NCBI RefSeq assembly: GCF_020217425.1
Contig: NZ_CP084091.1
Coordinates: forward strand, 1-64,000
Reading direction: 5' to 3'
Length of the DNA: 64,000 nucleotides
From: Halomicrobium urmianum
GTDB lineage: Archaea; Halobacteriota; Halobacteria; Halobacteriales; Haloarculaceae
Shown: in pieces, positions 2,982 to 30,199 of the stretch
Numbering within the stretch: the stretch's first letter is position 1
Layout: each line of letters starts with the position of its first letter
The notes under the pieces: model-generated
Database searches by the model: none
The model's input: only the letters and a program-made list of their open reading frames with translations
Told to the model about the DNA's origin: nothing
Made by a program: the position numbers and the translations under genes

Positions 2982-4163
2982 TCAGCGGTCCTTGTCGACG
3001 TATTCCGACGGACGCGTCGTGGCCGCACACGAGAGCGTCACGCCGGGGGCCAGGCTGGTGTTGATGCCCGTCTTGGCACCGTCGCCGGCGACGACGCCGA
3101 ACTTCCGTCGTCCAGTCGAGACCGTCTCTCCCTTGACGAGCATCTCGACCGGGGCCTCGTCGTGGCGGAGGTTCGCGACGTTCGTCCCCGCGCCGAAGTT
3201 CACGTCCCGGCCGAGGACGCTATCACCGACGTACGAGAGGTGATTGACGCTGGTCTCCGCCATAACGACGCTGTTCTTGACTTCGACACCGTGTCCCACG
3301 GAGACGTCGCGGCCGAGCAGCGTTGCCCCGCGGACGTACGCGTTGGGCCCGACTGTCGCGCCGCTGCGGACCATCGCCGGCCCTTCGATGACGGCCCCGG
3401 AATCGACGGTCGCGTCCGGCTCGACGACGACGTCCCCGCGGACGGTCGCCGTCTCGCTGACCTCGCCGGCGATCTCCCGGTCTAGCTCTCCGAGTTTCCA
3501 CTCGTTGCCCGCCAGAAGCTCCCACGGCCGACCGACGTCCAGCCATCGGTCGAGCGTGACCGGTGTCGTGTCGAAGCGGTCGAGGACTCTCGCGAGGACG
3601 TCCGTGAGCTCGCGTTCACCGCGGGCACTCTCGTCCACGTCCAGCCACTCCAGGGCCCGTTCGGGGAAGACGTATCCCCCCGCGTTCGCCAGGTCCGTCG
3701 GCGGTTCCTCGGGCTTCTCGACGATGTCGGTGACGACGCCTCCGTCCGTCGAGAGGACGCCGTAGTTCGATGGGGTCGCGACGCGCGTCGCGGCGACTGC
3801 CGGGCAGACGTCGAACAGTTCGTCGACGTCCGCCGGCTCGTAGAGGCTGTCCCCGTTCAGTACGGCAAACGGACCGTCGAGGTACGGGGCCGCCGCCTGG
3901 AGGGCGTCCGCGGTACCCTGAGGGGTCTCCTGTGTCGCGTACCGGACCGGCGTTCCGCGGTACGTCTCGCCGAAGTGGGACCTGATCTCCTCCTCCCGGT
4001 ATCCGACGACGAAGACGAGGCGCTCGGTCCCCGCTTCGACGGCCGCGTCGGCCGTGTGCTCGACCAGCGGTTTGCCTGCGACCGGCAACATCGGTTTCGG
4101 CGTGTTCGCAGAGAGCGGTCGGATGCGGGTTCCGCTTCCAGCGGCGAGTATGACTGTCTCCAT
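2982..4163 (-). CDS. glmU: GlmU-like sugar-phosphate nucleotidylyltransferase
   Basis: 393-residue enzyme with an N-terminal nucleotidyltransferase domain (VILAAGSGTR-IRPL, then NTPKPMLPVAGKPL within the first 30 residues; acidic metal site in LNGDSLYEP) and, from about residue 230, a left-handed beta-helix of hexapeptide repeats, as in bifunctional archaeal GlmU. It would make UDP-GlcNAc (or dTDP/UDP-glucose) from the sugar-1-phosphate. The helix carries the conserved ...RHDEAPVEMLVKG... and KFGVVAGDGAKTGINTS segments of the acetyltransferase part. ATG 4163 places the start 28 bases after the promoter box; ATG 4166 is the alternative. It pairs functionally with glmS at 15.2-17.0 kb. Confidence 0.85.
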   Translation of the reverse strand: METVILAAGSGTRIRPLSANTPKPMLPVAGKPLVEHTADAAVEAGTERLVFVVGYREEEIRSHFGETYRGTPVRYATQETPQGTADALQAAAPYLDGPFAVLNGDSLYEPADVDELFDVCPAVAATRVATPSNYGVLSTDGGVVTDIVEKPEEPPTDLANAGGYVFPERALEWLDVDESARGERELTDVLARVLDRFDTTPVTLDRWLDVGRPWELLAGNEWKLGELDREIAGEVSETATVRGDVVVEPDATVDSGAVIEGPAMVRSGATVGPNAYVRGATLLGRDVSVGHGVEVKNSVVMAETSVNHLSYVGDSVLGRDVNFGAGTNVANLRHDEAPVEMLVKGETVSTGRRKFGVVAGDGAKTGINTSLAPGVTLSCAATTRPSEYVDKDR

Positions 4164-4190
4164 CATCGGGGACGACTACCGTCGGGACGA

Positions 4191-4718: not shown

Positions 4719-5699
4719 TTACCCGTCGACGTTCTCCACCTCTGCCGTGTCGTTGAGTGTGACCTCGACGTCGTCCCCGTCCTTGAGGACGTACGTGTGC
4801 GGATCGACCGCTTCGCCGTTGACCGTCAGGGTGAACGAGGTATCGGAGTCGTTCCGGGAGTAGACGTCGCCCTCGAAGGTCATCGAACCCTCAGAGACGT
4901 TCGTCTCCGGGAACGTCGAGAGCGCGTACGCTGGCGTGATGTTCAGGGCGTGAGCGTGCCAGCGGGACGCGTTCTCGTCGCCGTGGAAGTGGAACGCCTC
5001 GCTCGTCATGACGTACTTGTCCTGTGAGAGGTCGACCTGTTCGCCGTCGACGGTCACGTCGAGCTGGCCGTGCGGGTGCGGGTGAGACTGATCGACGAGT
5101 CGGCCGGGCGTCTCCTGGTCGTGCGTGTCGACCCGTACGACGATCTCGTGTGCGGGGTTGAGATCCTCGAGCTCGTAGTCGCTGGGATCCTCGATCTCCG
5201 TTCCGGCGACGCGGTACGTGATCGTCGTGTTCTCGTCGCTCGCGTTGTAGGTCTCACCGTCGATAGTCAGGGAGTCGGACGTGGCGGTCACGTTCGCCGT
5301 CTCCAGCGCCTCGGCGAGTGACATCGGCTCCTCGGCCTCCCACGTGTGTTCGTTGGTCTCGTCGAACGAGAACTTCGCGTCGGAATCCGCGTCGAGGTGC
5401 GTGTCTCTCCCCTCGACGACGACAAGCATCCGGCCGGAGAGATCGCTCTCCCCGTCGTCGGTCATCTCGCCGTCAGTCGTCTCATTCGTCTCGGCCGTAC
5501 TGTTCGTCTCGTTCGTCTCGGCCGTACTGTTCGTCTCGGCCGTCTCGTTCGCTCCGGTCAACGCTTCGGTCGTCGGCTCTCCCTCGGTGTCTGCCGTGTC
5601 GCCGCTGCCGGAACCGCCGGGAGACGAGCACCCGGCCAGTAGCACCAGCGCTGCGACGAGCGCTACTGCGACGTGCGAACGCTGCAGTCGGAATGACAT
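4719..5699 (-). CDS. Histidine-rich lipoprotein with tandem beta-grasp-like modules
   Basis: 326-residue exported lipoprotein: basic n-region, hydrophobic core and lipobox LAGC (Cys ~23), then a disordered Thr/Glu/Asn linker with repeated ETNSTAETNE units. Two similar modules follow (about residues 120-195 and 240-320), each with a pattern DG-x2-Y ... T-x3-Y/V-x-V-x-G-x2-x-P-x4-L-x-D-G-D-x-V-x-V resembling a ubiquitin-like beta-grasp fold. Between them sit HPHPHG, FHFHGD and WHAHA clusters, a probable metal site. The gene at 6042 is a divergent paralogue with the same layout. Metal binding at the outer membrane face is inference; the family is unnamed to me. Many N-x-T sequons are present. 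Confidence 0.7.
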   Translation of the reverse strand: MSFRLQRSHVAVALVAALVLLAGCSSPGGSGSGDTADTEGEPTTEALTGANETAETNSTAETNETNSTAETNETTDGEMTDDGESDLSGRMLVVVEGRDTHLDADSDAKFSFDETNEHTWEAEEPMSLAEALETANVTATSDSLTIDGETYNASDENTTITYRVAGTEIEDPSDYELEDLNPAHEIVVRVDTHDQETPGRLVDQSHPHPHGQLDVTVDGEQVDLSQDKYVMTSEAFHFHGDENASRWHAHALNITPAYALSTFPETNVSEGSMTFEGDVYSRNDSDTSFTLTVNGEAVDPHTYVLKDGDDVEVTLNDTAEVENVDG

Positions 5700-6041: not shown

Positions 6042-7052
6042 ATGATTGACCTGTCGAAACGGCAGCTGCTTGCGCTCCTCCTCACGGGGCTGTTTGTCCT
6101 CGGCGCCGGGTGTACCGGCCTCGGGGGGAGCGGCAGCGGATCGAACGCCACGAATACCACCTCACTGACGGAGGGAACCGACACAGAGGCGGTCGAGTCT
6201 GCAGAGGAGACCACGGAGCGATCGTCGGAGAGCGCCGACGAACAGAACTCGTCAGACGGCGACGACGGGCACGATCACGACCACGGCGGTAACTCGTCGG
6301 CGACCACCGAAAACACGGATAACGCGTCGGAGGGTGGCGCGACTGACGGCGCCATCGCCGGCAAGATGACCGTCGTCGTCGCGGCGGACGAACTGTCGCT
6401 CCCTGCCCGCGACGAGGACGGCGACGGGTTCGGGATGGCCGACGATCCGCACACGTGGACGACTAGATCGAACGTGACGCTTGCCGAAGCGCTCGCCCGG
6501 TTCGACGTAACGGCGGACGTCGGCTCGCTGTCGGTCGACGGGACGACGTACCAGTCGTCGACCGAGGGGACGACCGTCTCCTACCGCGTCAACGGCGAAC
6601 CGGTCGACCCCACCGAGGTCGCCCTCGAAGACGGCGATCAGGTGTGGGTCACAGTGGAGACCGACGAGATGGACGCGGCGGTCCCCGGCACGTACATCGA
6701 CAATCAACAGCAGCACGTTCACGGTCACATGAACGTCACCGTCGCGGGCGAGGAGCTCGACTTCAGCCGGTCGAAGTACCAGTCCAACGACCGGTACTTC
6801 CACTTCGAGAACGGGGAGGGCGAGTACTGGCACGCCCACTCCTCGAACGTCACGCTCGACTACGCGCTCGACTCGCTCTCCGGAATCAACGCCTCCGGTG
6901 AAACCGTCACCGTCGACGGGACGACCTACGACGGGGGCGACGCCGATACGACGGTGACTGTCGAGGTCGACGGCGAATCGGTCAGCCCGAGCGAGTACTT
7001 CCTGAAAGACGGAGACGACGTCTCCATCACCATCGAACGCACGGGGAACTGA
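6042..7052 (+). CDS. Histidine-rich lipoprotein, paralogue of 4719-5699
   Basis: 336 residues. Signal peptide with lipobox LGAGC (Cys 24), then a low-complexity linker with GHDHDHGG, two beta-grasp-like modules (about residues 155-225 and 265-335; both contain VDGTTY followed by an x-V-x-x-LxDGDxV strand pattern), and between them HVHGH and WHAHS clusters. The layout, WHAH motif and module pattern match the divergently transcribed neighbour, so both arose by duplication. The DGDGFGMADD segment before the first module looks like a calcium-type loop. Likely anchored outside the cell and binding a transition metal (inference). It precedes a large sensory regulator by 90 bases on the same strand. 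Confidence 0.7.
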   Translation: MIDLSKRQLLALLLTGLFVLGAGCTGLGGSGSGSNATNTTSLTEGTDTEAVESAEETTERSSESADEQNSSDGDDGHDHDHGGNSSATTENTDNASEGGATDGAIAGKMTVVVAADELSLPARDEDGDGFGMADDPHTWTTRSNVTLAEALARFDVTADVGSLSVDGTTYQSSTEGTTVSYRVNGEPVDPTEVALEDGDQVWVTVETDEMDAAVPGTYIDNQQQHVHGHMNVTVAGEELDFSRSKYQSNDRYFHFENGEGEYWHAHSSNVTLDYALDSLSGINASGETVTVDGTTYDGGDADTTVTVEVDGESVSPSEYFLKDGDDVSITIERTGN

Positions 7053-7142: not shown

Positions 7143-9266
7143 ATGGCCTCTGAGTACACCAGTGTGACGCTCGACCGTCCGGTGACCATCGTCGTCGTCG
7201 GCGAGTGCGACCGGCTAGAGCGAGCGTTGTCGGCATTCGGCGGCAGACGCGAGGACGCGACGGTCCTGACCGTTCCGTCGGAGCAGTCGGCCGTACGGCG
7301 TCTCGCTGACGGAGCCGACACCGATCTGATCGTCAGCGCCCAGTCACTCGCCGATAGCACCGGAGTCGAGTTCCTTCGGCGCGTCCGGACCAGGTATCCC
7401 GACCTGCCGTTTGTCCTGGCCGGGACGGACGTATCAGTGGCCGACGAACGGGCCGCCATCGAAGCAGGCGCGACCGACGTCGTCCGACTCGACTCTGCGG
7501 ATCCGGCTGGCAACGACGTGTTGCAGGCGCGCGTCGAACGGGTCCTCGATCGAGAGCGGACCGACCAGTCCCTCGGAGACGCGTCGGGCCGGCTGCTCGG
7601 GGGCGCACACGCGACCGTCAGGACCCTGTTCGACGCGTCCTCGCGGGAAGCCGTCGCCGAGGCGGTCGTCGAGACCGCGACCGCCGAACTCGAGCTCACG
7701 CACGCGTCGATGTACCTGTTTGACGACGTCGATCGGCGGCTCCACCGCGTGGCGTCGGAACCGGACGGCGCGTCCGACCCGGAACCGGCGAACACCGAGT
7801 ACACGGACGCGGTCTGGGAGACGTACGTCACCGGCGACCCGCAGGTATCCAGCACTGGCTCGACCGGTGACCCGGCGGCCACGCTCGTCCTCCCGGTCGG
7901 CGAAGTCGGCGTGTTGCGAGTCGGCGCCGGAAGCGTCGCCCGACTCGACGACCGCAGACGCCAACTGACCGCGCTCTCGACGGCGGCGACGGCGGCCTTC
8001 GAACAGGTCCAGCGGGACCGGTCCCTGCGGGACCGCGAACGTGACCTGGCCGAGCAGGCCGACCGCATCGATCGGCGATCGGAACACGTCGACCACTTGC
8101 GGACGGGCCTGCAGGCGACTATCGAGGCCGACTCCCGCGAGGAACTGCGACGCCGCGTCTGTGAGCAGCTGCTCACCGACGAGCGGTTCGCGTTCGTTCG
8201 CGTCGAGGCGCTTGCGGACGGACAGGACCGTCTGGCCCCGCGGACCGCCGCCGGCGATGGTCGGGGTTATCTGGATGCCGTCGACCTCACTGTCGACGAG
8301 GGCGTCGGCGAACCCGCCGTCCAGGCCGCCCGTTCGGCGTCGGCAGTCGTCGTCGAAGACGTGACCGCTGGCCTCCGTGAGGGCGACTGGCGCGAACAGG
8401 CACTGGCCAGAGGGTTCCAGTCGGTGGCGAGCGTTCCGCTCGTCGACGACGGCCGACTCCGCGGAGCGCTGACGGTCCACGCGACCGAACCCGACGTGTT
8501 CGACGAGACGGTCAGGCGTGTCCTCGGTGACGTCGCCGACGCGATGACAGTCGGTCTCGCCATCCACGAACGGAGACAGGCCCTGCTGTCCGATACGGTC
8601 ATCGACCTCGAGTTACGGCTCTCCCGCGGGACGGACCTCTTCAGCCGCGTGGCCCGTGAGACGGGAGCGACTCTCACCTTCGAGGGGAGCCTGGCCAGGA
8701 ACGGGACAGCCGTGGTGTTCCTCCGGATCACGGGTGCGGATCCCGCGACGGTCGAGACGGCATTCGGGACTGCCTCACTGGTCGACGCTGTCGATCACGT
8801 CTCCCACAGCGACAGTGCGCTGTTCGAGATCGAACTTCGACCCGCGTCGCTCGTCAGCGAGATACTCGACTGGGGCGGAACGATCACCGATCTCAGCGCT
8901 GACGATACCACCACCAGTCTCGCCGTGACCCTCCCCGTCGAGACGGACGTCCGGCAGTTCGTGGAGTCACTGGAGCGGGTCGCACCCAGTCTCCAGCTCC
9001 ACTCCCGGACACAGCGAACCAGGCCCTCGGACGACATGCCGTTCCGCGCCGCGATCGAACAGCGGCTCACGGACCGGCAGCTGGAGGTGCTTCGGACGGC
9101 GCTTCTGAGCGGGTACTTCGAGTGGCCACGCGAACACACGGCCGAGGAGGTCGCCGGTCTGCTGAGCATCTCTCAGCCGACGTTCAACCGCCATCTGCGG
9201 GTCGCTCTGCGGAAGCTGCTAGTGGGGCTGTTCGACGCCGAGAAAACGAGCGATCAGGAGCGGTAA
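7143..9266 (+). CDS. Bacterio-opsin-activator-like regulator (receiver-like, GAF, GAF, BAT, HTH-10)
   Basis: 707-residue cytoplasmic transcription regulator. Order: receiver-like domain (about 10-125, with TDLIVSAQSLAD and FVLAGTD strands), GAF domain (~155-290), a connecting helix, second GAF domain (~315-475), the bacterio-opsin activator ligand-type domain (~480-630), and a C-terminal HTH-10 (LTDRQLEVLRTALLSGYFEWPRE then EVAGLLSISQPTFNRHLRVALRKL). GAF domains may sense redox, light or small molecules. The receiver-like domain lacks an obvious phospho-acceptor context, so phosphorelay is doubtful. It follows the His-rich lipoprotein, which may be its target. The 3' end overlaps the convergent gene at 9254 by 13 bases. 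Confidence 0.85.
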   Translation: MASEYTSVTLDRPVTIVVVGECDRLERALSAFGGRREDATVLTVPSEQSAVRRLADGADTDLIVSAQSLADSTGVEFLRRVRTRYPDLPFVLAGTDVSVADERAAIEAGATDVVRLDSADPAGNDVLQARVERVLDRERTDQSLGDASGRLLGGAHATVRTLFDASSREAVAEAVVETATAELELTHASMYLFDDVDRRLHRVASEPDGASDPEPANTEYTDAVWETYVTGDPQVSSTGSTGDPAATLVLPVGEVGVLRVGAGSVARLDDRRRQLTALSTAATAAFEQVQRDRSLRDRERDLAEQADRIDRRSEHVDHLRTGLQATIEADSREELRRRVCEQLLTDERFAFVRVEALADGQDRLAPRTAAGDGRGYLDAVDLTVDEGVGEPAVQAARSASAVVVEDVTAGLREGDWREQALARGFQSVASVPLVDDGRLRGALTVHATEPDVFDETVRRVLGDVADAMTVGLAIHERRQALLSDTVIDLELRLSRGTDLFSRVARETGATLTFEGSLARNGTAVVFLRITGADPATVETAFGTASLVDAVDHVSHSDSALFEIELRPASLVSEILDWGGTITDLSADDTTTSLAVTLPVETDVRQFVESLERVAPSLQLHSRTQRTRPSDDMPFRAAIEQRLTDRQLEVLRTALLSGYFEWPREHTAEEVAGLLSISQPTFNRHLRVALRKLLVGLFDAEKTSDQER

Positions 9267-9898
9267 TCGAGGCCGAGTTCGACGGCGAGCACGGACGCGT
9301 GGAGGGCGATCAGCACCGGGAGGACGACGGTGGAGAGCGACGGCAGCGCCAGCCACACGGTGCCCAGCGTCAGCACCGTGAGGACACTCGCCGCGAGCGC
9401 GAGGCGAGAGGGGGACGGTTCGGATTCTTCCGACTCCTGGTCGACGAACCAGTACCGGTGGAGATCGTCGTACGCCGGGCCGATCCTGACGGTCTTCTCG
9501 TCCGGGTCGTACTCGACGACGTCGAACTCGTCGAGGTGCGGGAGGTGATTCTGACACAGGGAGATGTAGACGCTGTCGTAGATGTCGCCCGGCGACGTCG
9601 ACGCGTCTGCGACGCGCTCGGCGACCCGTTCGCTGAGGTCGTTCACCTCCCACTCGGTACCCGACCGGGACAGCAGCTTGAGACAGGCCCGGCGTCGGTC
9701 GTTCCCGAGTAGCCCGTAGACTGCGTCCTCGTCCAGGGCGGTGGTGGATGCGTCCGGTTTGCCGTCGTCGTCCGCGCGAATCGGTCTCTCCGACCCGAGG
9801 TCGGCCTCCCCGGCAGAGTGGGCCTTCTCCGGTCCAGTTGCCCCCGCGTCGTCGGAGGTGGACCAGCGCGAGCACGCGGAGATGATCGTCTGGAACAT
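9254..9898 (-). CDS. Membrane-anchored winged-helix regulator (DUF7344-like)
   Basis: 214 residues. After an acidic ~55-residue lead, a winged-helix domain (ALDEDAVYGLLGNDRRRACLKLL ... VYISLCQNHLPHLDEFDVVEYD) spans about 55-150. Two hydrophobic helices follow (about 165-180 and 185-205). This is the pattern of haloarchaeal wHTH proteins with a C-terminal membrane anchor, such as DUF7344. It is convergent with the bacterio-opsin-activator-like gene and 61 bases downstream of a similar gene on the same strand, suggesting a two-gene unit of paralogues. What it senses is unknown. Start ATG 9898 is the first in frame. Confidence 0.7.
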   Translation of the reverse strand: MFQTIISACSRWSTSDDAGATGPEKAHSAGEADLGSERPIRADDDGKPDASTTALDEDAVYGLLGNDRRRACLKLLSRSGTEWEVNDLSERVAERVADASTSPGDIYDSVYISLCQNHLPHLDEFDVVEYDPDEKTVRIGPAYDDLHRYWFVDQESEESEPSPSRLALAASVLTVLTLGTVWLALPSLSTVVLPVLIALHASVLAVELGLDYRS

Positions 9899-9959: not shown

Positions 9960-10724
9960 TCATTCGGAGTAGTCGTCGACGTCGGGAGTGGACCACTCGA
10001 AGTCCTTCGAGGACGACTCGGTCAGCCAGTGGCTCACGGCCAGCATCATGAACAGGACGCTGATCAGGACGCCGCCGCCAACCTGGGCCGGCAGTGTCGC
10101 GGACACGAAGTCGCTCGCGAGCGCGGACGCCAGCACGAGGCTCCCGCCGGCCGCGTAGAGGTACCGCTTGTGCCAGCTCGTATCCACGTCCGCGGTCGCG
10201 TCGATCTCGACGGACTCGTGAACGTCGTCGTCCGCTTCCTCGTCGTCCGCTTCCTCATTCCCGAGCAGTGACGGCTCGCTGGCGAGGTACGGATCGAAGC
10301 GCTCGGCGATATCGGTCTTCTCGACGTATCCCCGATCCTGATTGTACTCGATGACGCCCGCCTCGTCCATCGTGGTGAGGTGGGACTGATACAGTGCAAT
10401 GTACACGCGCTGTCGCTGCTGGGATCTGAGGGCGTCGATAGTCGTGTCGTGTTCGAGTGCCGCGATGTGTTCGGCGATGTCGCTCATGCGCGCCGGGCCG
10501 TCCCCGTCGTACTCCTTGAGGTACTTGAGCACCAGGCGACGACGACGACACTGGAGCAGGTGGAAGATGTCGTCCCGCGTCAGCTCGGTCTCGGCTTCGG
10601 TCTCGGCGTCGGACTCGATTTCGGTCTCGGACTCGGTCTCGGATTCGGACTCGGACTCGGTCGAACTGTTCGTCTCTTCGGTGATGGTGCCAGTCGCCTC
10701 CGCGTGGTGAACTGCCTCGGACAT
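9960..10724 (-). CDS. Membrane-anchored winged-helix regulator, second paralogue
   Basis: 254 residues from ATG 10724 (an in-frame start lies at 10742). The N-terminus holds a run of Ser-Glu/Thr-Glu repeats (about residues 20-50). A winged helix follows (DDIFHLLQCRRRRLVLKYLKEYDG ... QRQRVYIALYQSHLTTMDEAGVIEYN), then an acidic linker (NEEADDEEADDDVHE) and two transmembrane helices ending in a charged tail. Same architecture as 9254-9898. Upstream lie two 38-base direct repeats 63 bases apart, likely regulatory. Confidence 0.7.
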   Translation of the reverse strand: MSEAVHHAEATGTITEETNSSTESESESETESETEIESDAETEAETELTRDDIFHLLQCRRRRLVLKYLKEYDGDGPARMSDIAEHIAALEHDTTIDALRSQQRQRVYIALYQSHLTTMDEAGVIEYNQDRGYVEKTDIAERFDPYLASEPSLLGNEEADDEEADDDVHESVEIDATADVDTSWHKRYLYAAGGSLVLASALASDFVSATLPAQVGGGVLISVLFMMLAVSHWLTESSSKDFEWSTPDVDDYSE

Positions 10725-10742
10725 GCTGGTCTCTCCTTGCAC

Positions 10743-11451: not shown

Positions 11452-13185
11452 TTACAGGACGCTGCCCGCCCCGGGGTTGTCGATCGGTCCGGGGCGGTTG
11501 TCTGCATCCCTGTTGACCTGCATCTGGGACGGCTTGGCCGATTCGAGACAGATGAGGTTCTCCCGGCCCAGGCGCAGTTTGACGACCTCGTCGTCGTCGG
11601 CCATTCGGGACAGCAAGCGACTCACCTTCGCCTTCGACCAGTCGGTGGTCGCGACGATTTCGCTCTGCTTCATTCGGCCGGACGCCGCCCGCAGCATCTC
11701 GAGGACCAGCTCCTCGTCCGTGAGGAGGTCGTCCTCGGAATGATCCCGGACCACCTCGGCCGGGGTCGTCGCCTCGTCGCTGCCGTCGTCTCCGTCGGCC
11801 GTCGTCGCCGGCTCGTCGCTGTTCGAGGTTCTGTCGCGCGTGACCATCTCCTCACTGACGAACCGGTACCGGAACTCGCGGGCTAACCAGTACTGGAGCA
11901 TACGAGCGCTGTCGACGAGAGCGATGACCTGGCCGCTCTGGATCGCAGTCATCGACATGCCGAGAACGATCACGCCCGCGAGAGCGGTGCTCGTCAGCCA
12001 CGTGAGCGTGAACCCGCTCGTCGGGTCCGTCCCGAGGTCGGACTCCAGCTCGTCGCTCATGAAGTCGCCGTCGGTGTCCTCGGCCAGCGGGTCAGTGTCG
12101 AGTTCCAGCTCCCGCCCGTCAGCAAGCCCGTCGTCGTCGCTGTCGCTGTCGAGCGGGTCCGTGCCCAGTTCGATCTCCTGCCCGTCGACAACCCCGTCGT
12201 CGTCGCTGTCAGCGACAGTCGGGTCGGTCCCGGCGTCCAGTTCGGCGGCGTCGTTCAGCCCGTCGCCGTCGGTGTCACCGTCGAGCGGGTCCGTGCCCAG
12301 TTTCAGCTCCCGCTTGTCGGCTAGCCCGTCGCCGTCGGTGTCGCTGTCGAGCGGATCCGTGTCCAGTTGCAGTTCCTGCCCGTCTGACAGGCCGTCGCCG
12401 TCGGTGTCACCGTCTAGCGGGTCCGTACCCAGTTTGATCTCCTCCCCGTCGGCTAGCCCGTCGTCGTCGCTGTCAGCGACGGTCGGGTCGGTTCCGGCGT
12501 CTAGCTCGGCGGTGTCGTTCAGCCCGTCGTCGTCGCTGTCATTCTTGAGCGGGTTCGTGCCCCGTGTTAGCTCCCGCCCGTCGGCTAGCCCGTCGTCGTC
12601 GCTGTCAGCGACGGTCGGATCGGTTCCGGCGTCCAGTTCGGCGGTGTCGTTCAGCCCGTCGCCGTCCGTGTCCGGCTCGGTGAAGTCGGTCCCCTGTTTG
12701 ACCTCCTGTGCGTTGTTCAGCCCGTCCTGATCGAGGTCGTCGCTCCGCAGGATCCACTCCTGGACGATAGTGTGTGAGTCCAGAACGTCCCCCGTGTCGG
12801 GATCGCGAAGCGTGAGCGTCGTGTTGTTGACGGTGCTGTTCGCGGAGTAGGAGAGAGTCGCAGACGACGCGTTGTTGAGCGGCGTGCAGGTGGTCGTCCC
12901 GTTTCGCTGGAGACAGAGCTCGGTACCGGCCGGTGCGTCGTCAGCCTGTACGCTGATCAGGTACGCTTTCACCTCCTGTCCCTGTGCCGTGTGCTCCCAG
13001 ACGTACGTCGTGTTCCCGATCGTCCCGGCCGTCTGTGTCTGGCTCACAGACGTGATGGTGGCCGTCCCGTTCTGACTACCGTCGGTCGGTTCCCCCGCGG
13101 CGGCCACGGCACCGGTAGAGAACACTGCAAGTGCCAATAAGGCGAAAACGACCCCCGCAACGATCGGTAACCTCCGCTTATGCAT
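11452..13185 (-). CDS. One-component surface sensor: TSP3 calcium repeats, TM helix, winged helix
   Basis: 577 residues from ATG 13185 (three codons downstream of a TTG in the same frame). A signal peptide (~5-33) leads to an extracellular domain with two Cys ([11 protein letters not shown]). Eleven 22-residue repeats of type DxDxDGLxDxxELxxGTDPxxx follow, thrombospondin type 3-like with five Asp ligands each. A transmembrane helix ([20 protein letters not shown]) comes next, then an acidic linker and a cytoplasmic winged helix ([44 protein letters not shown]). Surface sensing of Ca2+ or a partner coupled directly to DNA binding is the natural reading, but is inference. It stands alone with an AT-rich promoter region upstream. 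Confidence 0.75.
12013..12738 (-). repeat. 66-base minisatellite, 11 units, coding TSP3 repeats
   Basis: Each unit encodes 22 residues beginning D-S/T-D-x-D-G. Several units are near-identical at DNA level (for example the [13 protein letters not shown] units), implying recent unequal exchange; unit number may vary between strains. Confidence 0.85.
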
Positions 13186-13455
13186 GTTAAGCAAAAAGAA
13201 ACGAAGTGATAATATTCTTTTTGCTCTGTCCGACGTTTGTCTGACTTTTTAAGACCGGATAGGCGTATTATAGTACGTAATTGAATATCGGTTATCGACT
13301 AGTTAATATCATATTAAACTCGTCTACGTACCACAGGACTCCAGTTTTGAGGGCAGATGGGCGAGGCCCCTTTTCGATTCGGAAAGAGACCGGATCGCGA
13401 CACAGTCGGCCGCAGCAGATGGTAGCGAGTGGGCCGGGCGGAAACGCCGTCTCAC
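13186..13455. promoter_or_regulatory. AT-rich region upstream of the TSP3 sensor gene
   Basis: Bases 13195-13330 are clearly AT-richer than the surroundings. On the minus strand GAATATTATCA lies about 25-30 bases before the ATG at 13185 and may be the TATA box. The remainder to 13455 holds no gene. Confidence 0.4.
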
Positions 13456-15204
13456 TCACCGAGACGGTTCGACCGGTGCCGCGCCGGACTGAAGAAGATC
13501 CGAGGGGTCGAGGGACTTCTCACCGATCGTCGAATCGAGCCACGTCGTGATGTCGTTGACCCGGAGTTTGAGCCGCCAGGGGAGTTCCTGGACCCCGGGC
13601 GACGTCGCAAAGATCTCCTGGTCGAGGTCGCACTGGTCGTACAGCTCCGCCCGATCGGGCCAGGGGCCTTCGTACCCCGAGACGAACGGCATCGCCCGCT
13701 TCATGAAGTTGTCTATCTGGTTGAACGTAAAGGAGTCGTACGGCCGATCCGGCGGTCGATGGTGGAGGATCTCGTCGTCGAGTTTCCGGAGGGCCCGAAG
13801 ATACGTCTGCGTGTTCCGGTATTCGGGCGGCGTCGCGAGGTGCCATTCGATCAGTTCCGCGTCCAACGTGACGCAGGACTCGACGAAGTTGTCACTCAGG
13901 TGGTACCGGAACGGACGCGAGGGCTGGTTGAGGATGCCGAACAGGGCCATGCCGTCGTAGAGCCTGTCGAACCGGTGATCCCACCGGTCGAGCACCTCCG
14001 AGACACGGCGTCGCAGAAACTCCGTCCCGGACTCGTCGCGCTCCGTCATCTCACGTGAGAGCCGCTCCGAGGCGGGGAGGTAGCCGAACTTCTCGGCGAA
14101 GTGATCGGCGACGTCCGGGTTCGGGTCTATGCGGTAGGGCGGACACTTCCGGTCGAACAGTTCCAGGCCCGTTATCGGCTGGAAGTGTCCCCGGAGCATC
14201 GTGTCGGCCAGGCCACCGTGGTAGATGGTGTCGACGTCCATCTGATCGACGTACCCGGCGTGATGGATGTGCAGCGACTCCATGATGCCGTGACCGTAGC
14301 GGACGGTTTCGGCCTCGGTATTGAGGTACCGCTCGTCGACGGTCAGCGTCTGATGCGGAATCCCGTACTGGGTCGCGAGTTGCCCGGCGACCGCGACTTC
14401 CGAGCTGTCCGCTTCGCCGACGGTGTACGCGGCGTCGAGGTCCGAGATTCCGGCGAGGACTGTTCGCGAGTCGTACCCGCCGCTGAGCAGGACCCCTTTC
14501 TCGCCGGGCAGGTCGTCCCGTCGCTCCAGCGACCGCCGGAGTCGGAGGGCTAGTTCCCCGGCGTAGTCGAACTCGCGGGGCTCGTAGATGAACCGGCCGA
14601 ACTCGTGGGTGTCGGTGGCGGTCAGCCAGCTGTCGAACGGGACGCGCTCGACCTCCTGTAGCACGGTCCGGTCGTCGAACGCCACACCGAAGTGGAGGAA
14701 CTCGAGGAGCGGTTCGTAGTGGATCGTCGGGTCGGACACCTGGTCGGTAACCATCGCAGGGTCAGTCCCGAACACGCGTGTGTCCCCCGCGTCCGTGTAG
14801 TAACACTCCCGGCTCCTGACGCTGTCCGTCGCCACCATCCCGCCGTGGTTCTCGTGGTCGACGACGGCGATGAACGATCCGTTGAACCCCTGCAGCGCCT
14901 CTGGACCGCTCGTCGCGAACTCCGAGAGGAGCCACTCCGCGGGGTCGGACCCGTCGATAGAGCGGGGGTACACCTCGCCCCAGAGGACACAGGCACCGCG
15001 TTCGCCCTCGTGGACGGCGGTTCGGCCGGGGACGTCGAGTTCCGAACTCCTGACTCCGACGGTGACGTTCGGCCCAGAAACGACGCGGTCGAAGGCCTCC
15101 GGCGACCGGAGGCGCTCGAAGGTGCGTTCGTCCCCGAATGCGCCGAACAGCTCCTTGTTCATCGGGGTCACGTCAGGGTTGGTGCGGGCCGTACGCGCTG
15201 ACAT
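13456..15204 (-). CDS. Asparagine-synthetase-like protein without the glutaminase cysteine
   Basis: 582 residues from the ATG at 15204, which overlaps the glmS stop (ATGA). The N-terminal half resembles an Ntn glutaminase domain (NGSFIAVVDHENHGGMVATD) but starts with no Cys2, so ammonia release from glutamine is not expected. The C-terminal synthetase domain has the PP-loop SGGYDSRTVL. Such relatives occur in polysaccharide and N-glycan clusters and amidate or adenylate sugars or peptides rather than aspartate. Coupling to glmS suggests a sugar-modifying role; the substrate is unknown. Alternative start ATG 15162. Confidence 0.75.
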   Translation of the reverse strand: MSARTARTNPDVTPMNKELFGAFGDERTFERLRSPEAFDRVVSGPNVTVGVRSSELDVPGRTAVHEGERGACVLWGEVYPRSIDGSDPAEWLLSEFATSGPEALQGFNGSFIAVVDHENHGGMVATDSVRSRECYYTDAGDTRVFGTDPAMVTDQVSDPTIHYEPLLEFLHFGVAFDDRTVLQEVERVPFDSWLTATDTHEFGRFIYEPREFDYAGELALRLRRSLERRDDLPGEKGVLLSGGYDSRTVLAGISDLDAAYTVGEADSSEVAVAGQLATQYGIPHQTLTVDERYLNTEAETVRYGHGIMESLHIHHAGYVDQMDVDTIYHGGLADTMLRGHFQPITGLELFDRKCPPYRIDPNPDVADHFAEKFGYLPASERLSREMTERDESGTEFLRRRVSEVLDRWDHRFDRLYDGMALFGILNQPSRPFRYHLSDNFVESCVTLDAELIEWHLATPPEYRNTQTYLRALRKLDDEILHHRPPDRPYDSFTFNQIDNFMKRAMPFVSGYEGPWPDRAELYDQCDLDQEIFATSPGVQELPWRLKLRVNDITTWLDSTIGEKSLDPSDLLQSGAAPVEPSR

Positions 15205-17021
15205 CACTGTACTGTCACGCTCTTCGCGAGGTTGCGCGGTTTGTCGATCGGCCGATCGAGCTGGTTCGCCGTGTGATAGGAGACGAGCTGGAGCTGGACG
15301 TTTGCCAGGAGGTTCTGACACACCGGATGGGTGTCGGGGACCCGGAGGTACGCGTCGGACTCGTCGGCGCCCGGCCCGTCCGCCGGGCCGATGCCGATTA
15401 TATCGGCCCCGCGGGTCTGCGCCTCCTTCGCGTTCGTGACCGTCTTGTCGACGTCTTCGCCCGTGAACAGTCCGAACACCGGCGTATCGGAGGTAACGAG
15501 GGCGAGCGGGCCGTGCTTCAGTTGCCCCGAGGCGAACCCCTCGGCGTGTTCGTAGGTGATCTCCTTGAACTTCAGCGCCCCCTCCAGCGCGACCGGCCGA
15601 CTCATCCCCCGGCCGATGAAGAAGTAGGCCTCGTGCTCCGGCAGCCAGGTAGCGAGGTCCGCTGCGCGACTCTCCTCGATAACCTGATCGAGGTGGGTCG
15701 GAATCCGCTCGAGCGCCGCGAGCAGCTCCGGGAGGTCCTCACGGGGCGTCGCGTCCGGGAGTTCCATCGCGATCTTCTGGGAGAGGAGGATCAGCGTGAC
15801 GACCTGCGAGGTGAACGTCTTGGTCGCCGCGACGCCGATCTCGGGGCCGGCACGGATGAACACGCTCTGATCGGCCTCCCGGGCGGCGGTCGAACCGACG
15901 ACGTTCGTCACCGTCACGGTCGTCGCGCCGCGGCCGGCGGCCGTCCGCAGGGCCGAGAGGGTATCGGCCGTCTCACCGCTCTGCGTGACGGTGACGACCA
16001 GCGTCTCGTCGGACACGGGGCCCGCGGCCTTGGCGTACTCGCTGGCCCGGAACACTTGCGTCCGGACGCCGGCGTCGGACAGGAGCCGTGCGCCGAACAG
16101 CGCCGCGTGGTACGACGTCCCGCAGGCGACTACGTGGATCTCGCGTACGCCGTCCAGGACTTCGGTGTCGAGGTCGTCGAAGGCCACCGCTCCGTCCGCC
16201 GGGTCGACCCGTCCGCGGATGGTCTTCGCGATGGAGCTGGGCTGGTTGTGGATCTCCTTGAGCATGTAGTGATCGAAGTGACCCTTTCCGACTTCCTCGG
16301 GGTTCCAGTCGACCCGTTCGACGTCCCGCTCGACCGGGACGCCGTTCCGGTCGAAGATCTGCGCCCCGTCCGATTCGAGGACCACGACGTCACCGTCCTC
16401 GAGAAACGCGACGTCGCGCGTGTGCTCGACGAACGCCGGGATGTCGCTGGCGAGGTAGTACTGGCCGCTGTCCAGCCCCAGGACGAGCGGTGAGCCCGCG
16501 CGCGCGGCGTAGACGCGCTCTTCGTCCCGGATCAGGGCGGCGATGGCGTAACTACCTTCGAGTTCGTCGATAGCACGTCGGAAGGCGGCCATCGTCTCGC
16601 TCTCCGTCTGCCGGAAGTGCTCGATGAGGTGCGGGATGACCTCCGTGTCGGTGTCGCTGGTGAACTCGTGGCCGTTCGCGGAGAGGAACTCGCGGAGTTC
16701 GGCGTGGTTCTCGATGACCCCGTTGTGGACGACGGCGATGTTGCCCGTGTCGCTCGTGTGCGGGTGAGCGTTGGCGTCGGTCGGCGGACCGTGCGTGCTC
16801 CAGCGGGTGTGGCCGATCCCGACCTCGCCCGAGGCGGCCTCGGTCTGTATCTCCTCGCGGATCTCTGAGACGTCGCCGGCCCGCTTGTGGACGGCGATGC
16901 CGGACCCGTTCTGGACGGCGATGCCGGCGGAGTCGTACCCGCGATACTCGAGGCGTTCTAACCCGTTTATGAGCGTCCCCACAGCATCGTCGGCCCCGGA
17001 TTGAGCGATGATACCGCACAT
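15204..17021 (-). CDS. glmS: Glutamine-fructose-6-phosphate aminotransferase
   Basis: 605 residues. Start fixed at 17021 because the enzyme needs Cys1 as nucleophile: MCGIIAQSG. The glutaminase domain (1-~220) has GHTRWSTHG and NGVIENH. Two SIS isomerase domains follow with GTSYHAAL, TQSGETADTLSAL and a C-terminal end close to the family's SVTV(E). It makes glucosamine-6-phosphate, the first step to UDP-GlcNAc, and is complemented by the GlmU-like enzyme at 2982. It shares a transcript with the asparagine-synthetase-like gene through a 4-base overlap. A promoter motif at 17199 would give a ~150-base leader. Confidence 0.95.
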   Translation of the reverse strand: MCGIIAQSGADDAVGTLINGLERLEYRGYDSAGIAVQNGSGIAVHKRAGDVSEIREEIQTEAASGEVGIGHTRWSTHGPPTDANAHPHTSDTGNIAVVHNGVIENHAELREFLSANGHEFTSDTDTEVIPHLIEHFRQTESETMAAFRRAIDELEGSYAIAALIRDEERVYAARAGSPLVLGLDSGQYYLASDIPAFVEHTRDVAFLEDGDVVVLESDGAQIFDRNGVPVERDVERVDWNPEEVGKGHFDHYMLKEIHNQPSSIAKTIRGRVDPADGAVAFDDLDTEVLDGVREIHVVACGTSYHAALFGARLLSDAGVRTQVFRASEYAKAAGPVSDETLVVTVTQSGETADTLSALRTAAGRGATTVTVTNVVGSTAAREADQSVFIRAGPEIGVAATKTFTSQVVTLILLSQKIAMELPDATPREDLPELLAALERIPTHLDQVIEESRAADLATWLPEHEAYFFIGRGMSRPVALEGALKFKEITYEHAEGFASGQLKHGPLALVTSDTPVFGLFTGEDVDKTVTNAKEAQTRGADIIGIGPADGPGADESDAYLRVPDTHPVCQNLLANVQLQLVSYHTANQLDRPIDKPRNLAKSVTVQ

Positions 17022-17198
17022 CAGTGGCTCACCCTCGGCTGGATGGCCGCACTGGCGGTCACTGCGACGGCGTTCGATGCGAGCGGTGCGTTCGTGCGGG
17101 CAGAGGGATGTGACAGCATCGTTCTGAAGTGCATGAGTTCTCACCTGAGCCCCGATCCGACGGGGTGGGCTCGTTCGTACTGACGTGCTTATCGGGCA

Positions 17199-18638: not shown

Positions 18639-18659
18639 GGGCCCCACGGAGTCGTGGTG

Positions 18660-20060
18660 ATGACGAGATCAGCCCCTGACGACCGCTGCGGGCTGGAGAA
18701 CCTAACTATGAATTCGATCCCAAGCAACGACGCGCTCGACGGAATGGGCCCGATCCAGACGCCTCAGGAGGTCACGCCGCGGGAGACGACGGTCTGCGTC
18801 GTCGGCCTCGGCTACGTGGGGCTACCGCTGGCCGTCGGGTTCGACGAATCGGGATACGACGTCATCGGCTACGACGTCTCCGAGGAGACTGTCGCTCGGC
18901 TCGAAGACGGCACCGACACGACCGGTGATCTCGGTGACGACGCCATCGAGGACGGCGACGTCTCGTTCACGACGAAGCCCGGTGCCATCGCCGAGGCCGA
19001 CTACGTTCTCGTCACCGTTCCGACTCCCATCGACGAGAACCAGGATCCGAAGATGGACTTCGTCGAGAGCGCGGCCGAGACGGTCGGTCGGGAGATGACT
19101 CCCGGGACGACGGTGATCCTCGAATCGACCGTCTATCCGGGCGCGACGCGTGAGGTGCTCGTTCCGGTCCTCGAGGCGGCGTCGGACCTCGTCTGTGGCG
19201 AGGAGTTCTTCGTGGGGTACTCCCCGGAACGGGCGGTCCCCGGCGACGACGAACACGGACTCGAGAACGTCGTGAAGATCGTCAGCGGGCAGAACGAGAC
19301 CGTCAGCGAGTCCGTCGCGGACCTGTACGACCACGTCATCGAAGCGGGCGTCCACCGCGCGCCCTCGATGGAGGTCGCCGAGGCGGCGAAAGTCGTGGAG
19401 AACGTCCAGCGCGACGTCAACATCGGCCTCGTCAACGACCTCGCGATGACGTTCGAGGCGATGGACATCGACACGCAGGCCGTCCTCGACGCCGCCGGAA
19501 CGAAGTGGAACTTCCACGACTACAACCCCGGACTCGTCAGCGGTCACTGCATCCCGGTGGACCCGTACTTCCTCATCCATCGCGCGAACCGGGCGGGTGT
19601 CACGCCACAGGTCGTCGAGTCCAGCCGAGCCGTCAACGAGTCGATGCCGAAACACGTCGCCGACCTGATGGTGAAAGCGCTGGCCAAGGCGGACCGGCCG
19701 CTGGCCGACTGCCGGGTTCTGGCCGCCGGCCTGGCCTACAAGGCCGACGTCGCCGACATCCGGAACTCGAAGGTAGCCGCCGTCGTCACGGAACTCCGGG
19801 AGTTCGGTATCGAAGTCGTCGGATTCGACCCGCTGCTGGACGACGACGCGATCGAGTCCGCCCTCGGCATCGACACCCAGGAGCGGGTCACGTTCGAGGG
19901 GTTCGACGGCCTGTTGCTGGGCGTGGCTCACGAGGAGTTACGGGACCTCGACCCCGACGCCGTGGCCGCGGAACTGTCCGACCCGCCGGCCATCGTGGAC
20001 GTGGACCGCACCTTCGACGAGGGTGCGGTTCCCGACGAGGTGGCGTACAGGGGGGTCTGA
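18660..20060 (+). CDS. Nucleotide-sugar 6-dehydrogenase (UDP-Glc/GlcNAc/ManNAc type)
   Basis: 466 residues. NAD-binding motif VCVVGLGYVGLPLA near residue 45, central domain, and the catalytic cysteine segment GLVSGHCIPVDPYFLIHRA. It oxidises C6 of a UDP-hexose(amine) to the uronate in two NAD steps. The NPGLVSGHC context and length fit the WecC/WbpA/TviB branch, which act on N-acetylhexosamines, as well as UDP-glucose dehydrogenases. ATG 18660 was chosen by promoter distance; ATG 18708 is a possible shorter start. First gene of an operon with glycosyltransferases, providing their uronate donor. Confidence 0.88.
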   Translation: MTRSAPDDRCGLENLTMNSIPSNDALDGMGPIQTPQEVTPRETTVCVVGLGYVGLPLAVGFDESGYDVIGYDVSEETVARLEDGTDTTGDLGDDAIEDGDVSFTTKPGAIAEADYVLVTVPTPIDENQDPKMDFVESAAETVGREMTPGTTVILESTVYPGATREVLVPVLEAASDLVCGEEFFVGYSPERAVPGDDEHGLENVVKIVSGQNETVSESVADLYDHVIEAGVHRAPSMEVAEAAKVVENVQRDVNIGLVNDLAMTFEAMDIDTQAVLDAAGTKWNFHDYNPGLVSGHCIPVDPYFLIHRANRAGVTPQVVESSRAVNESMPKHVADLMVKALAKADRPLADCRVLAAGLAYKADVADIRNSKVAAVVTELREFGIEVVGFDPLLDDDAIESALGIDTQERVTFEGFDGLLLGVAHEELRDLDPDAVAAELSDPPAIVDVDRTFDEGAVPDEVAYRGV

Positions 20061-20061
20061 G

Positions 20062-21090
20062 ATGTATCGTGGGCAGACAGTCGGTGTCGTCCTGCCGGCG
20101 TACAACGAAGCCGACCACGTCGGGTCAGTCATCGAGTCGCTACCCGGGTTCGTCGACCGGGTGTACGCCATCGACGACTGCTCGACCGACGAGACCTGGG
20201 ACGTGATCTGCGACTACGCCACTGTCGGCGACCGGGCGGTCGGGGACGCCGAGTCTCCCGACGAGCAGGCGGCCGAAGAGGTGCTCGTTCCCGACGGTCA
20301 CGGCGGGGCGCTCCCGGAGGTCGTCCCGGTTCAGCACGGCACCAACCAGGGTGCCGGCGGGACCCTCAAGACCGGCTATCTCCTCGCGGCCCGGGACGGG
20401 ATGGATGCAACCGTCACGATCGACGCCGACGGCCAGATGGATCCCACCCAGATGGACCGGCTGCTGGACCCCATCGTCGAGGGACGGGCGGGCTTCTCGA
20501 AGGGGAACCGCCTGGCCGACGCCGACACCTCAGACGGGATGCCACCGTTCCGACTGCTCGGCAACTGGCTCCTGACGCTGCTGATGAAGCCCGCGAGCGG
20601 CTACTGGCGACTCCGGGACCCGCAGAACGGATACACCGCCATCTCCCGGGAGGCGCTCGACGCGGTCGACATCACGGCCATCCCGGACGACCACGACTAC
20701 CCGAACGACCTCCTGGCACGCCTGAACGCGGCCGACGTCAGCGTGGCGGACGTCTCGATACCCGCCATCTACGGCGAGGAGGAGAGCACGATTCGGTTCT
20801 CGGAGTTCGTCAGGCGTACCTCCGTGACGATCCTGCGGGCGTTCGCCTGGCGCCTCCGGGCCGCTGCCGACCGCGGACGTCCGCACCTGCCAGTGTTCTA
20901 CGTGGCCGGTGTGGTCGGCGTGATCGTCGGCCTCTTTTCGACCGCCAGCACGCTGCTGTCGGGCGTCCTCCCCGGATCGCTCTCGATCAGTTGGCCCGAG
21001 TCGGCGCTGCCGCTGGCCGCCGGCCTCGCCGTGCTCGGGCTGGCGCTGGGCGCCGACGAGGCGTCCGACGGCGAGGTGATCTCGGAATGA
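20062..21090 (+). CDS. GT2 glycosyltransferase with C-terminal membrane helices
   Basis: 342 residues starting one base after the preceding stop. GT-A fold: VGVVLPAYNEADHVGSVIESL at the N-terminus, YAIDDCSTDETWD, then DADGQMDP as the DxD metal site, and a KGNRLAD loop typical of dolichyl/polyprenyl-phosphate hexose synthases. Two hydrophobic helices at ~280-302 and ~312-330 anchor it. Likely charges a lipid carrier or extends a lipid-linked glycan on the cytoplasmic face. The next gene overlaps by 4 bases. Confidence 0.85.
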   Translation: MYRGQTVGVVLPAYNEADHVGSVIESLPGFVDRVYAIDDCSTDETWDVICDYATVGDRAVGDAESPDEQAAEEVLVPDGHGGALPEVVPVQHGTNQGAGGTLKTGYLLAARDGMDATVTIDADGQMDPTQMDRLLDPIVEGRAGFSKGNRLADADTSDGMPPFRLLGNWLLTLLMKPASGYWRLRDPQNGYTAISREALDAVDITAIPDDHDYPNDLLARLNAADVSVADVSIPAIYGEEESTIRFSEFVRRTSVTILRAFAWRLRAAADRGRPHLPVFYVAGVVGVIVGLFSTASTLLSGVLPGSLSISWPESALPLAAGLAVLGLALGADEASDGEVISE

Positions 21091-22163
21091 AGATCGTCGT
21101 GACCGTCCAGCACGCCGGCCACGTCCACTTCTTCAAACACGCCATCGCGGAACTGAGACGGCGGGGCCACGAGGTGCGGGTGTTCGCCCGCGACAACGAG
21201 GCCTCCATCGACCTGCTCGAGTGCTGCGACATCGAGTACGAGGTGCTGGCCGGTCCGTCCGGGTCGCTCCTGTCCCTCGCGAAGGCACAGAGCGTCTACG
21301 AAGCGCGGCTGCTGCGGCGGGCCATCGACTTCGAACCGGACGTGATGACGGCCATCGGCGGCGTCGCCGTCTCCCACGTCGCCCCGCTCGTCGGGGCCCG
21401 GAGCGTCGTCTTCTACGACACGGAACACGCGTCGCTCATCCGACGGCTGGCGTTCCCGTTCGCGGACACGGTCTGCACGCCGGAGTGCTTCAGCGACGAT
21501 ATCGGCCCGAAGCAGGTCCGCTACCCGTCGTATCACGAACTCGCCTATCTCCATCCCAACCGCTTCGACCCGGACGAGTCGGTCCTCGAGGACGTCGGAG
21601 TCGATCCCGACGGGGACGTGGTCCTCGTCAGGCTCGGCGACTGGAGTTCCTCACACGACGTGGGCGTCAGCGGCATCGACGATCCCGCGACGCTCGTCGA
21701 AGAGATCGAAGCCGAGGGGGCCGAGGTGTTGCTCAGTACGGAGGGCGACCTTCCGGAGGGACTGGCGAGCCACGGGTTCAGTCTCGAACCGGACCGCTTC
21801 CACGACCTGCTCGCGGCCGTCGACCTCTACGTCGGCGAGGGCGGCACGACGGCCGCCGAGTGTGCCGTGCTCGGAACGCCCGCGGTCTACGTGAGCGACC
21901 TCGCGCTGGGCTATCTGGCGGAGCTCGAATCGACGTACGGGCTGGTCGTCAACTGCGACGGCGAGGGGAGGTCTGCCGACGCCTCCGAAGCTGCCCGAGA
22001 CATCCTGGCAGCACCGGACGGGGTGTTCGAGCGGCGGCGGCTGACGCTCCTCAGCGAGAAGGTGGACGCGACCGACGTCGTGCTCGAACAGCTCGTCGGG
22101 GACGGGAGCGCCACACCCGGCGGAAGGGAGTCCGAGGGGCCCCCGCTCCGAAACGTGGGGTGA
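21087..22163 (+). CDS. DUF354-family glycosyltransferase-like protein
   Basis: 358 residues, ATGA-coupled to the GT2 gene. N-terminal MKIVVTVQHAGHVHFFKHAIAEL with the RRGHEVRVFARDN and AIGGVAVSHVAP segments, and a C-terminal nucleotide-sugar binding half with YVGEGGTTAAECAVLGTPAVYV, the pattern of DUF354/GT-B enzymes related to MurG. It probably transfers one sugar to the growing glycan from a UDP donor in the cytoplasm. Acceptor unknown. The last 25 residues are Gly/Ser-rich. Confidence 0.8.
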   Translation: MKIVVTVQHAGHVHFFKHAIAELRRRGHEVRVFARDNEASIDLLECCDIEYEVLAGPSGSLLSLAKAQSVYEARLLRRAIDFEPDVMTAIGGVAVSHVAPLVGARSVVFYDTEHASLIRRLAFPFADTVCTPECFSDDIGPKQVRYPSYHELAYLHPNRFDPDESVLEDVGVDPDGDVVLVRLGDWSSSHDVGVSGIDDPATLVEEIEAEGAEVLLSTEGDLPEGLASHGFSLEPDRFHDLLAAVDLYVGEGGTTAAECAVLGTPAVYVSDLALGYLAELESTYGLVVNCDGEGRSADASEAARDILAAPDGVFERRRLTLLSEKVDATDVVLEQLVGDGSATPGGRESEGPPLRNVG

Positions 22164-22167
22164 ACAG

Positions 22168-23100
22168 ATGCGAGTGTTACACCTGACGACCGGTCGGCGG
22201 TCGTTTTTCGACCAGCAGGTAGCGGCGCTCCGTTCCCGGGGCATCGACTGTACGGTCCTCGAGGTGCCGGGCGACTACTCGGCGGACGACCCTCGAGGCG
22301 TGACCGACTACCTCAGGTACTACCCGCAGGTGCTCGAACGCGGACTCGACGGATACGACGTCGTCCACGCGAACAACGGGCTCACGTTGCCCTTCGCGCT
22401 CGCTCAGCCCAGCCGCCCGGTCGTCGCCACGTTCTGGGGAACCGACCTGATGGGGAACCACGGCGTGGTCTCTAGCGTGAGCCGCCACAGTGCGGCCCGT
22501 GCCGACGACGTGATACTCCCCAGTCGAGCGATGGCGGAGTACGTCGACTGCGAGTACGCCCACGTGCCGTTCCCGGTCGACACCGACCGCTTCGAACCGA
22601 TCGATCGGGCGAGCGCCCGCGAACGCGTCGGCTGGGAGACGGAGGAGACGGTCGTGCTGTTCCCATACGATCCGAGCCGGCCGGAGAAAGACTACCCGCG
22701 GGCACAGCGGGTCGTCGAACAGGCCGACGTGGCGGCCGACCTGCGGCCGCTGACCGGTAAACCGCACGAGGAGATGCCCTACTACCTCAACGCCAGCGAC
22801 GCCGTCCTCGTCACCTCGAAACGCGAGAGCGGTCCGATGATCGTCCGGGAAGCGGCGGCGTGCAACGTCCCGGTCGTCTCGACGGACGTCGGATTCGTTC
22901 GCGAGACCCTCGAGGGGGTCGACCAGTCGGCGGTCTGTCGCTCCGACGCCGAGCTGGCCGCGTCGCTGGAGCACGTACTCACCAGCGACGGCCGATCGGA
23001 CGCGCGGAGCGTACTCGAGGGCCTGGATCCGGCCGACTTCAGCCGGCGCCTCGAACGGGTCTACGACGCTGCGGTGGCTGCCGGGAGGGGGTGCCGATGA
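22168..23100 (+). CDS. GT4 glycosyltransferase
   Basis: 310 residues, 4 bases after the previous stop. GT-B enzyme: MRVLHLTTGRRSFFDQQVAAL at the start, ATFWGTDLMG, YAHVPFPVDTDRF, and the C-terminal donor site ...VTSKRESGPMIVREAAACNVPVVSTDVGF with the conserved E-x7-E-like pair of family GT4. Third sugar transferase in the operon. The 3' end overlaps the membrane protein gene by 4 bases. Confidence 0.85.
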   Translation: MRVLHLTTGRRSFFDQQVAALRSRGIDCTVLEVPGDYSADDPRGVTDYLRYYPQVLERGLDGYDVVHANNGLTLPFALAQPSRPVVATFWGTDLMGNHGVVSSVSRHSAARADDVILPSRAMAEYVDCEYAHVPFPVDTDRFEPIDRASARERVGWETEETVVLFPYDPSRPEKDYPRAQRVVEQADVAADLRPLTGKPHEEMPYYLNASDAVLVTSKRESGPMIVREAAACNVPVVSTDVGFVRETLEGVDQSAVCRSDAELAASLEHVLTSDGRSDARSVLEGLDPADFSRRLERVYDAAVAAGRGCR

Positions 23101-29070: not shown

Positions 29071-29097
29071 TGCCGGTCCGTACTATCCCGGAAGGCC

Positions 29098-29116
29098 TTA
29101 TTATTCGTCGGATAAA
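29098..29116 (-). promoter_or_regulatory. Bipartite promoter of the DUF1616 gene
   Basis: Minus strand TTTATCCGACG then AATAATAA, ending 28 bases before the start at 29070. Confidence 0.55.
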
Positions 29117-29239
29117 CCGCCGGACGGGCGAGCGATGGACCGTCTCGGGGTGTCACTTTCAGCGGGTCTGTGAGAGGACAGTACCGGACGACGGCCACTG
29201 TCGGGCCATCGAACCGGACGACAGCGACGTCAGTCCGTA

Positions 29240-30154: not shown

Positions 30155-30180
30155 GTCCATGCGAACGCTCCGGGACGTGT

Positions 30181-30199
30181 TTATTACCCGCTTGCTAGT
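30181..30199 (-). promoter_or_regulatory. Bipartite promoter of the GT2 gene at 29240
   Basis: Minus strand ACTAGCAAGCG then GGTAATAA, ending 27 bases before the ATG at 30154. Confidence 0.5.

Follow-up and report, generated by a model that had tools for sequence, protein, structure and literature searches.

Results

The window analyzed in the present study is a stretch of 64,000 nucleotides from Halomicrobium urmianum, and on its reverse strand, at 11452–13185 (ATG at 13185, stop at 11452, both exact), it encodes a 577-aa chain that from its open reading frame, Pfam matches, and AlphaFold2 model is a putative stalked transmembrane (TM) DUF7343 regulator. All parts of the chain are likewise on the reverse strand. 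It begins with a signal peptide or hydrophobic helix (residues 1–29, 13099–13185), seen in the sequence and in the model, followed by an outer Ig-like beta domain (about residues 30–146, 12748–13098) with conserved W63, C91, and C100 and seven N-glycosylation sequons, and then by eleven 22-residue TSP3 repeats (about residues 150–391, 12013–12738), of which 1 and 11 are conserved ends and 2–10 are lineage-specific. A single TM helix (residues 393–416, 11938–12009), supported by hydropathy and the model, leads through a modeled juxtamembrane helix (residues 419–446, 11848–11931) and an acidic linker modeled as mostly disordered (residues 447–486, 11728–11847) to a DUF7343 winged helix (residues 487–547, 11545–11727). 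In Pfam, TSP3_bac (PF18884) matched over 11 stretches (E 4.5e-56, 186.7 bits against a cut-off of 25), so that the 22-residue DxDxDG units exceed the family's cut-off, and DUF7343 (PF24034) matched at residues 487–547 (E 1.7e-26, 92.3 bits against 27.6); HTH_IclR was just over its cut-off. The eleven repeats were spaced at exactly 22 aa, and Tandem Repeats Finder detected higher-order periods of 132 bp and 264 bp in the array. The AlphaFold2 model of the full chain, built on 28 aligned sequences, predicted a helix at 7–23 and a beta domain at 43–145, a stalk with one helix per repeat at 158–384 (pLDDT about 97), and then the TM helix (393–416), juxtamembrane helix (419–446), disordered linker (447–474), and winged helix (475–547). 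Both C91 and C100 were near-invariant among relatives and probably form a disulphide in the head.

The distribution of sequons and charge supports a topology with the repeats outside and the winged helix inside. Among 44 members there were 337 sequons in 12,581 outer residues (2.7 per 100 aa) vs 17 in 5,706 inner residues (0.3), and K/R averaged 2.6 after the TM helix vs 0.95 before it. In the window protein ten of ten sequons were N-terminal to the TM helix, where 2.7 would be expected from the shuffled composition of that part. The outside-to-inside arrangement suggested in the earlier note is thus borne out by sequon and positive-inside asymmetry, with repeats and winged helix predicted on opposite sides of the membrane and not on the same side.

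Of 292 haloarchaeal genomes, 73 gave a match to a profile consisting of the outer domain and the start of the first repeat, and these represent 24 of 77 genera. Haloarcula, Haladaptatus, Haloferax, Halogranum, Halococcus, Halobellus, and Haloprofundus are among the named carriers. When the profile was run on a phylum-wide sample, all of its matches fell in genomes of the order to which the window belongs. Dozens of relatives were the same single chain, with fused forms throughout the sampled Halobacteria, and chance origin of the architecture is excluded because the whole chain is conserved in other genera. A fusion artefact was also considered and is rejected, since the fused single chain recurs in relatives of many genera. 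The single chain read in the earlier note therefore stands, on Pfam, AlphaFold2, and the fused relatives, as does its one-component layout, and searching haloarchaea for the same domain order found it fused and not as separate proteins. That note knew of no characterised protein with this order; none was found in the literature searched, mostly open-access, where nothing relevant turned up on DUF7343, DUF7344, COG2512, or haloarchaeal TSP3. The stalked DUF7343 architecture is real and widespread, and no characterised member was found. Relatives are usually annotated publicly as “helix-turn-helix domain-containing protein” and in one case as “thrombospondin type 3 repeat-containing protein”. 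In public annotation the H. mediterranei homologue (E6P09_RS17105, L230:15091-16212) starts inside the outer domain, probably too far downstream, and so lacks the signal peptide. One gene copy (L060, genome G125) has signal peptide, repeats, TM helix, and winged helix and lacks the outer Ig head. Matches on viral contigs were to the repeats alone, none extending into the DUF7343 domain.

The gene lies within a cluster of surface-polysaccharide genes comprising a sugar nucleotidyltransferase (2982–4166, reverse strand), two conserved neighbors on the reverse strand, an asparagine-synthase-like (AsnB-like) protein (13456–15321) and GlmS (15204–17144), a forward-strand run of nucleotide-sugar dehydrogenase, GT2, DUF354, and GT1 (18654–23100), and, on the reverse strand at 28072–34446, DUF1616, GT2, a beta-helix protein, and a polysaccharide flippase, with three glycosyltransferases in total. 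Directly after the regulator gene, two reverse-strand genes encode probable partners, a DUF7344 predicted winged-helix protein in whose sequence two C-terminal hydrophobic segments can be read (9960–10742) and a second DUF7344 membrane winged-helix protein (9254–9898). At least two glycan genes occurred at 22 of 41 stalked loci vs 0 of 37 random stretches (Fisher 1.8e-8), and a DUF7344 gene at 28 of 41 vs at most 2 of 37 (Fisher 4.6e-9), in all 28 at most 1.6 kb away and with the same orientation as the stalked gene; the 41 loci exclude the window, the glycan queries were drawn from the window itself, and the loci are related by descent, so that these Fisher values overstate independence. The window genome contains 31 DUF7344 matches, and because of this a gene is expected beside one by chance in a few per cent of cases. 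The family is expanded and winged-helix-like in this genome, and no paper was found on it. Both the surface-polysaccharide context and the DUF7344 neighbors are new here, having been missed by the earlier note.

The window's gene order is repeated in Haloarcula sp. JP-L23, and on H. mediterranei pHME505 the homologue has a DUF7344 gene (RS17100) as a neighbor, with glycosyltransferases, a nucleotide-sugar dehydrogenase, and a polysaccharide export protein also close by. In Haloarcula proper the nearby glycan genes are glycosyltransferases alone, at some distance, and in Halococcus, Halostella, and several MAGs (3–4 repeats) the gene is by uvrC, ligA, and an ABC transporter and not by glycan genes. 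Loci L124, L126, L128, L136, and L138 are 3–4-repeat members near uvrC and ligA, mostly with the ABC transporter as well. A GAF/BAT/HTH_10 regulator (7143–9266, forward strand) adjoins the DUF7344 genes in the window; related HTH_10 genes recur at L097, L098, L099, and L119, and a GAF protein in JP-L23. There is also a lipoprotein-like gene pair (4719–5699, reverse strand, and 6042–7052, forward strand), with relatives near the regulator at 8 of 41 loci, and, from a reading of the sequence, a TnpB-like transposon-associated ORF within the glycan cluster (26134–27399, forward strand).

At the promoter of the regulator gene a candidate operator, GTCAGAC-AAAC-GTCGGAC (13228–13245, reverse strand), is positioned just downstream of a TATA-like box, TTAAAA, and occupies the same place in three relatives. 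The tandem GTCNGAC was exact in the window, H. pellucida, and JP-L23 and had one mismatch in H. rubra, clear sharing being confined to the closest clade, and no exact tandem was found elsewhere in 708 kb of background. At two mismatches GTCNGAC was not enriched in the window (11 observed vs 17 expected), and for this reason only the conserved promoter copy was retained. One-mismatch copies were present at 4220 and 18496, upstream of glycan genes; in JP-L23, even when one mismatch was allowed, the region upstream of the corresponding dehydrogenase gene had no copy. The promoter tandem is a candidate repressor site, and its binder could be another regulator, such as the HTH_10 protein. Scans for sigma-70 promoters and terminators were uninformative, as expected in an archaeon.

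Discussion

The patterns detected are most consistent, at a probability we would put at roughly 55%, with a transmembrane one-component transcription regulator of the surface-polysaccharide gene cluster, in which the repeats serve as spacer and not as sensor. The order of the domains, their conservation, the signals of topology, the Ig fold, the turnover of repeat units, and the genomic context are results of computation. Targets in the glycan cluster, partnership with the DUF7344 proteins, and the nature of the stimulus are inferred, the stimulus being the least certain step. A metal-stiffened TSP3 rod would hold the disulphide-bonded Ig-like head off the membrane, where the head might meet an envelope component such as nascent glycan, S-layer, or a neighboring surface. 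Passing through the one TM helix and then the juxtamembrane helix, the signal would reach the DUF7343 winged helix. This domain is predicted to bind DNA and, while held at the membrane, would act on cluster promoters, that of its own gene among them, jointly with the adjacent DUF7344 membrane winged-helix proteins. It is improbable that the protein is instead a latent transcription factor freed by intramembrane proteolysis once the outer part is cut or pulled: the single TM helix would suit such release, as would the disordered stretch that joins the winged helix to the membrane helices, but no protease gene was noticed in the neighborhood and no cleavage motif was recognised. The regulatory role is itself a prediction, and one could imagine a structural tether whose winged helix fastens DNA or a protein to the membrane and has no part in controlling transcription, but the tie of the gene to one functional cluster and the candidate operator at its own promoter leave this very improbable.

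What the head might bind bears on another alternative. Modeled alone, the outer domain gave a predicted Ig-like sandwich (pLDDT 90.6), and the solved folds nearest to this model were Ig-like domains, found in GH2 enzymes and in the M. primoryensis adhesin (Z about 8–10). Foldseek searches with the head and the full chain returned nothing under 1e-3 and generic Ig/FnIII-like domains alone, and no solved structure matching by sequence was found. The head could belong to a contact or adhesion receptor, binding a surface partner, whether carried by another cell or located in the matrix, and reporting this to the genome, which would be consistent with the likeness to adhesin Ig domains among others, with the variable reach of the stalk, and with TSP3 repeats in myxobacterial cell-cohesion proteins. 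The window protein has surface TSP3 repeats in common with two of these, CglD and MtsD, although the match is restricted to the repeats and far under the NCBIfam family cut-offs, the full-length equivalogs scoring 71 bits against 400 for CglD and 47 against 800 for MtsD. However, the adhesin is one match among many, no binding residues were recognised in the head, and an adhesion receptor would overlap with the regulator we favor, so we consider it possible but unlikely. The fold is generic and a ligand is not readable from it.

Repeat number varied widely among relatives, from 2 in Halohasta, 3 in Halostella, 4 in Halococcus and Halobellus, and 6 in Haloferax to about 7 in Haloarchaeobius, 8–9 in Haladaptatus, Halogranum, and Haloprofundus, 11 in most Haloarcula and the window, and 12 in H. 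rubra and H. pellucida; counts were taken from spacing and sequence inspection, and a few automatic overruns were re-read from the alignment. In two pairs of relatives, H. rubra with H. pellucida and H. argentinensis with H. mannanilytica, the best match of a given repeat was mostly the repeat in the same position. The inner repeats of the window had no positional match in relatives, only the first and last matching by position, and repeats 2, 4, and 8 were 89–92% identical to one another in DNA. Duplication of units has thus rebuilt the inner array in this lineage, while both end repeats were kept and total length stayed near that of relatives. Near-constant total length despite turnover hints at a length constraint. 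Change of length by 66-bp units, as the earlier note had anticipated, is supported by the counts across lineages and by this duplication, and such exchange must be episodic since copy number is stable in Haloarcula proper.

The same note proposed Ca2+/Mg2+ or a surface partner as the outside ligand, and a Ca2+/Mg2+ ligand read through the stalk is not supported as stated: Halohasta has only 2 repeats and proteins in the same slot have none, so that the array resembles a spacer of adjustable length. Stalkless TM-DUF7343 proteins occupy the same genomic slot in Natrialbaceae and Haloarcula amylovorans, and 14 of 14 repeat-less DUF7343 loci examined, mainly from Natrialbaceae with one from Haloarcula (L146), were in the same kind of glycan cluster, these having been found through the winged-helix motif and so not a random sample. 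The loci read were short TM-winged-helix proteins; the ORF at L144 was not recovered by the script. At L146, the H. amylovorans locus, the stalkless protein is beside AsnB, GlmS, and two DUF7344 genes. A winged-helix tree of 77 columns left both a gain and a loss of the stalk compatible with the stalkless forms. Across this slot the TM helix and winged helix are constant and the head and stalk optional, which speaks for a spacer role of the stalk and against its being the sensor. In a divalent-cation or salinity sensor, the repeats would bind and release Ca2+ or Mg2+ so that the rod stiffens or collapses and drives the winged helix. Its basis is that the EF-hand-like ligand positions D1, D3, D5, D/N9, and E12 are retained across 313 counted repeats, found with a pattern that already demanded most of them, and these positions make the repeats putative calcium-binding sites. 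In brine, however, such sites are expected to be permanently occupied. Excretion of EPS in H. mediterranei falls at high salinity according to a review (PMC11205408), as a salinity sensor might predict, but arrays of only 2 repeats, or none in the same slot, another Haloarcula species included, make this explanation rather unlikely. In the regulator we prefer, the repeats would instead set reach and rigidity.

By its features the protein is a transmembrane transcription regulator (TTR), set apart by its Ig head, its repeat rod, and the C-terminal position of its winged helix. Like the TTRs ToxR and CadC, it has in one chain a DNA-binding domain, predicted from the DUF7343 match over its cut-off and the winged-helix model, an outer part, and at least one TM region, predicted from hydropathy, the model, and sequon and charge asymmetry, and it would likewise act from the membrane. 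In ToxR and CadC, however, the winged helix is N-terminal, whereas here it is C-terminal, after signal peptide, Ig head, and repeat rod. Among archaea there is a likeness to ArnR and ArnR1 of Sulfolobus, in which we know of no Ig head or TSP3 stalk. These are membrane-bound one-component regulators of surface structures (PMC6396743) with the HTH in the N-terminal region (PMC13286277), whereas the winged helix of the window protein is C-terminal; TTRs in general have been surveyed (PMC10269533). Haloarchaeal DUF7345-TM-DUF7343 proteins have the same winged helix behind one TM helix but a different outer domain without repeats, and the three such paralogues in the window genome are outside glycan clusters; in Pfam the DUF7345 match is present in these paralogues and absent from the window protein.

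A more speculative and doubtful extension is a molecular-ruler receptor, in which gain and loss of repeats would fit the length of the stalk to how thick the S-layer or polysaccharide coat is, the head would report coat status, and the trio of membrane-bound winged-helix proteins would adjust coat biosynthesis genes in a feedback loop. The natural series of stalk lengths, from 0 to 12 repeats, suits asking whether the reach of the receptor fits the envelope. How archaea regulate their surface polysaccharides is poorly understood, and only a few of their membrane-bound transcription factors have received study. With the stalked DUF7343 family there is a named candidate for such a regulator, encoded next to polysaccharide genes in haloarchaea that are genetically tractable, and EPS-cluster deletion strains of H. 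mediterranei exist (PMC9769981, PMC6759562). The placement of the gene among surface-polysaccharide genes suggests that through this protein the cell probably switches those genes from the membrane.
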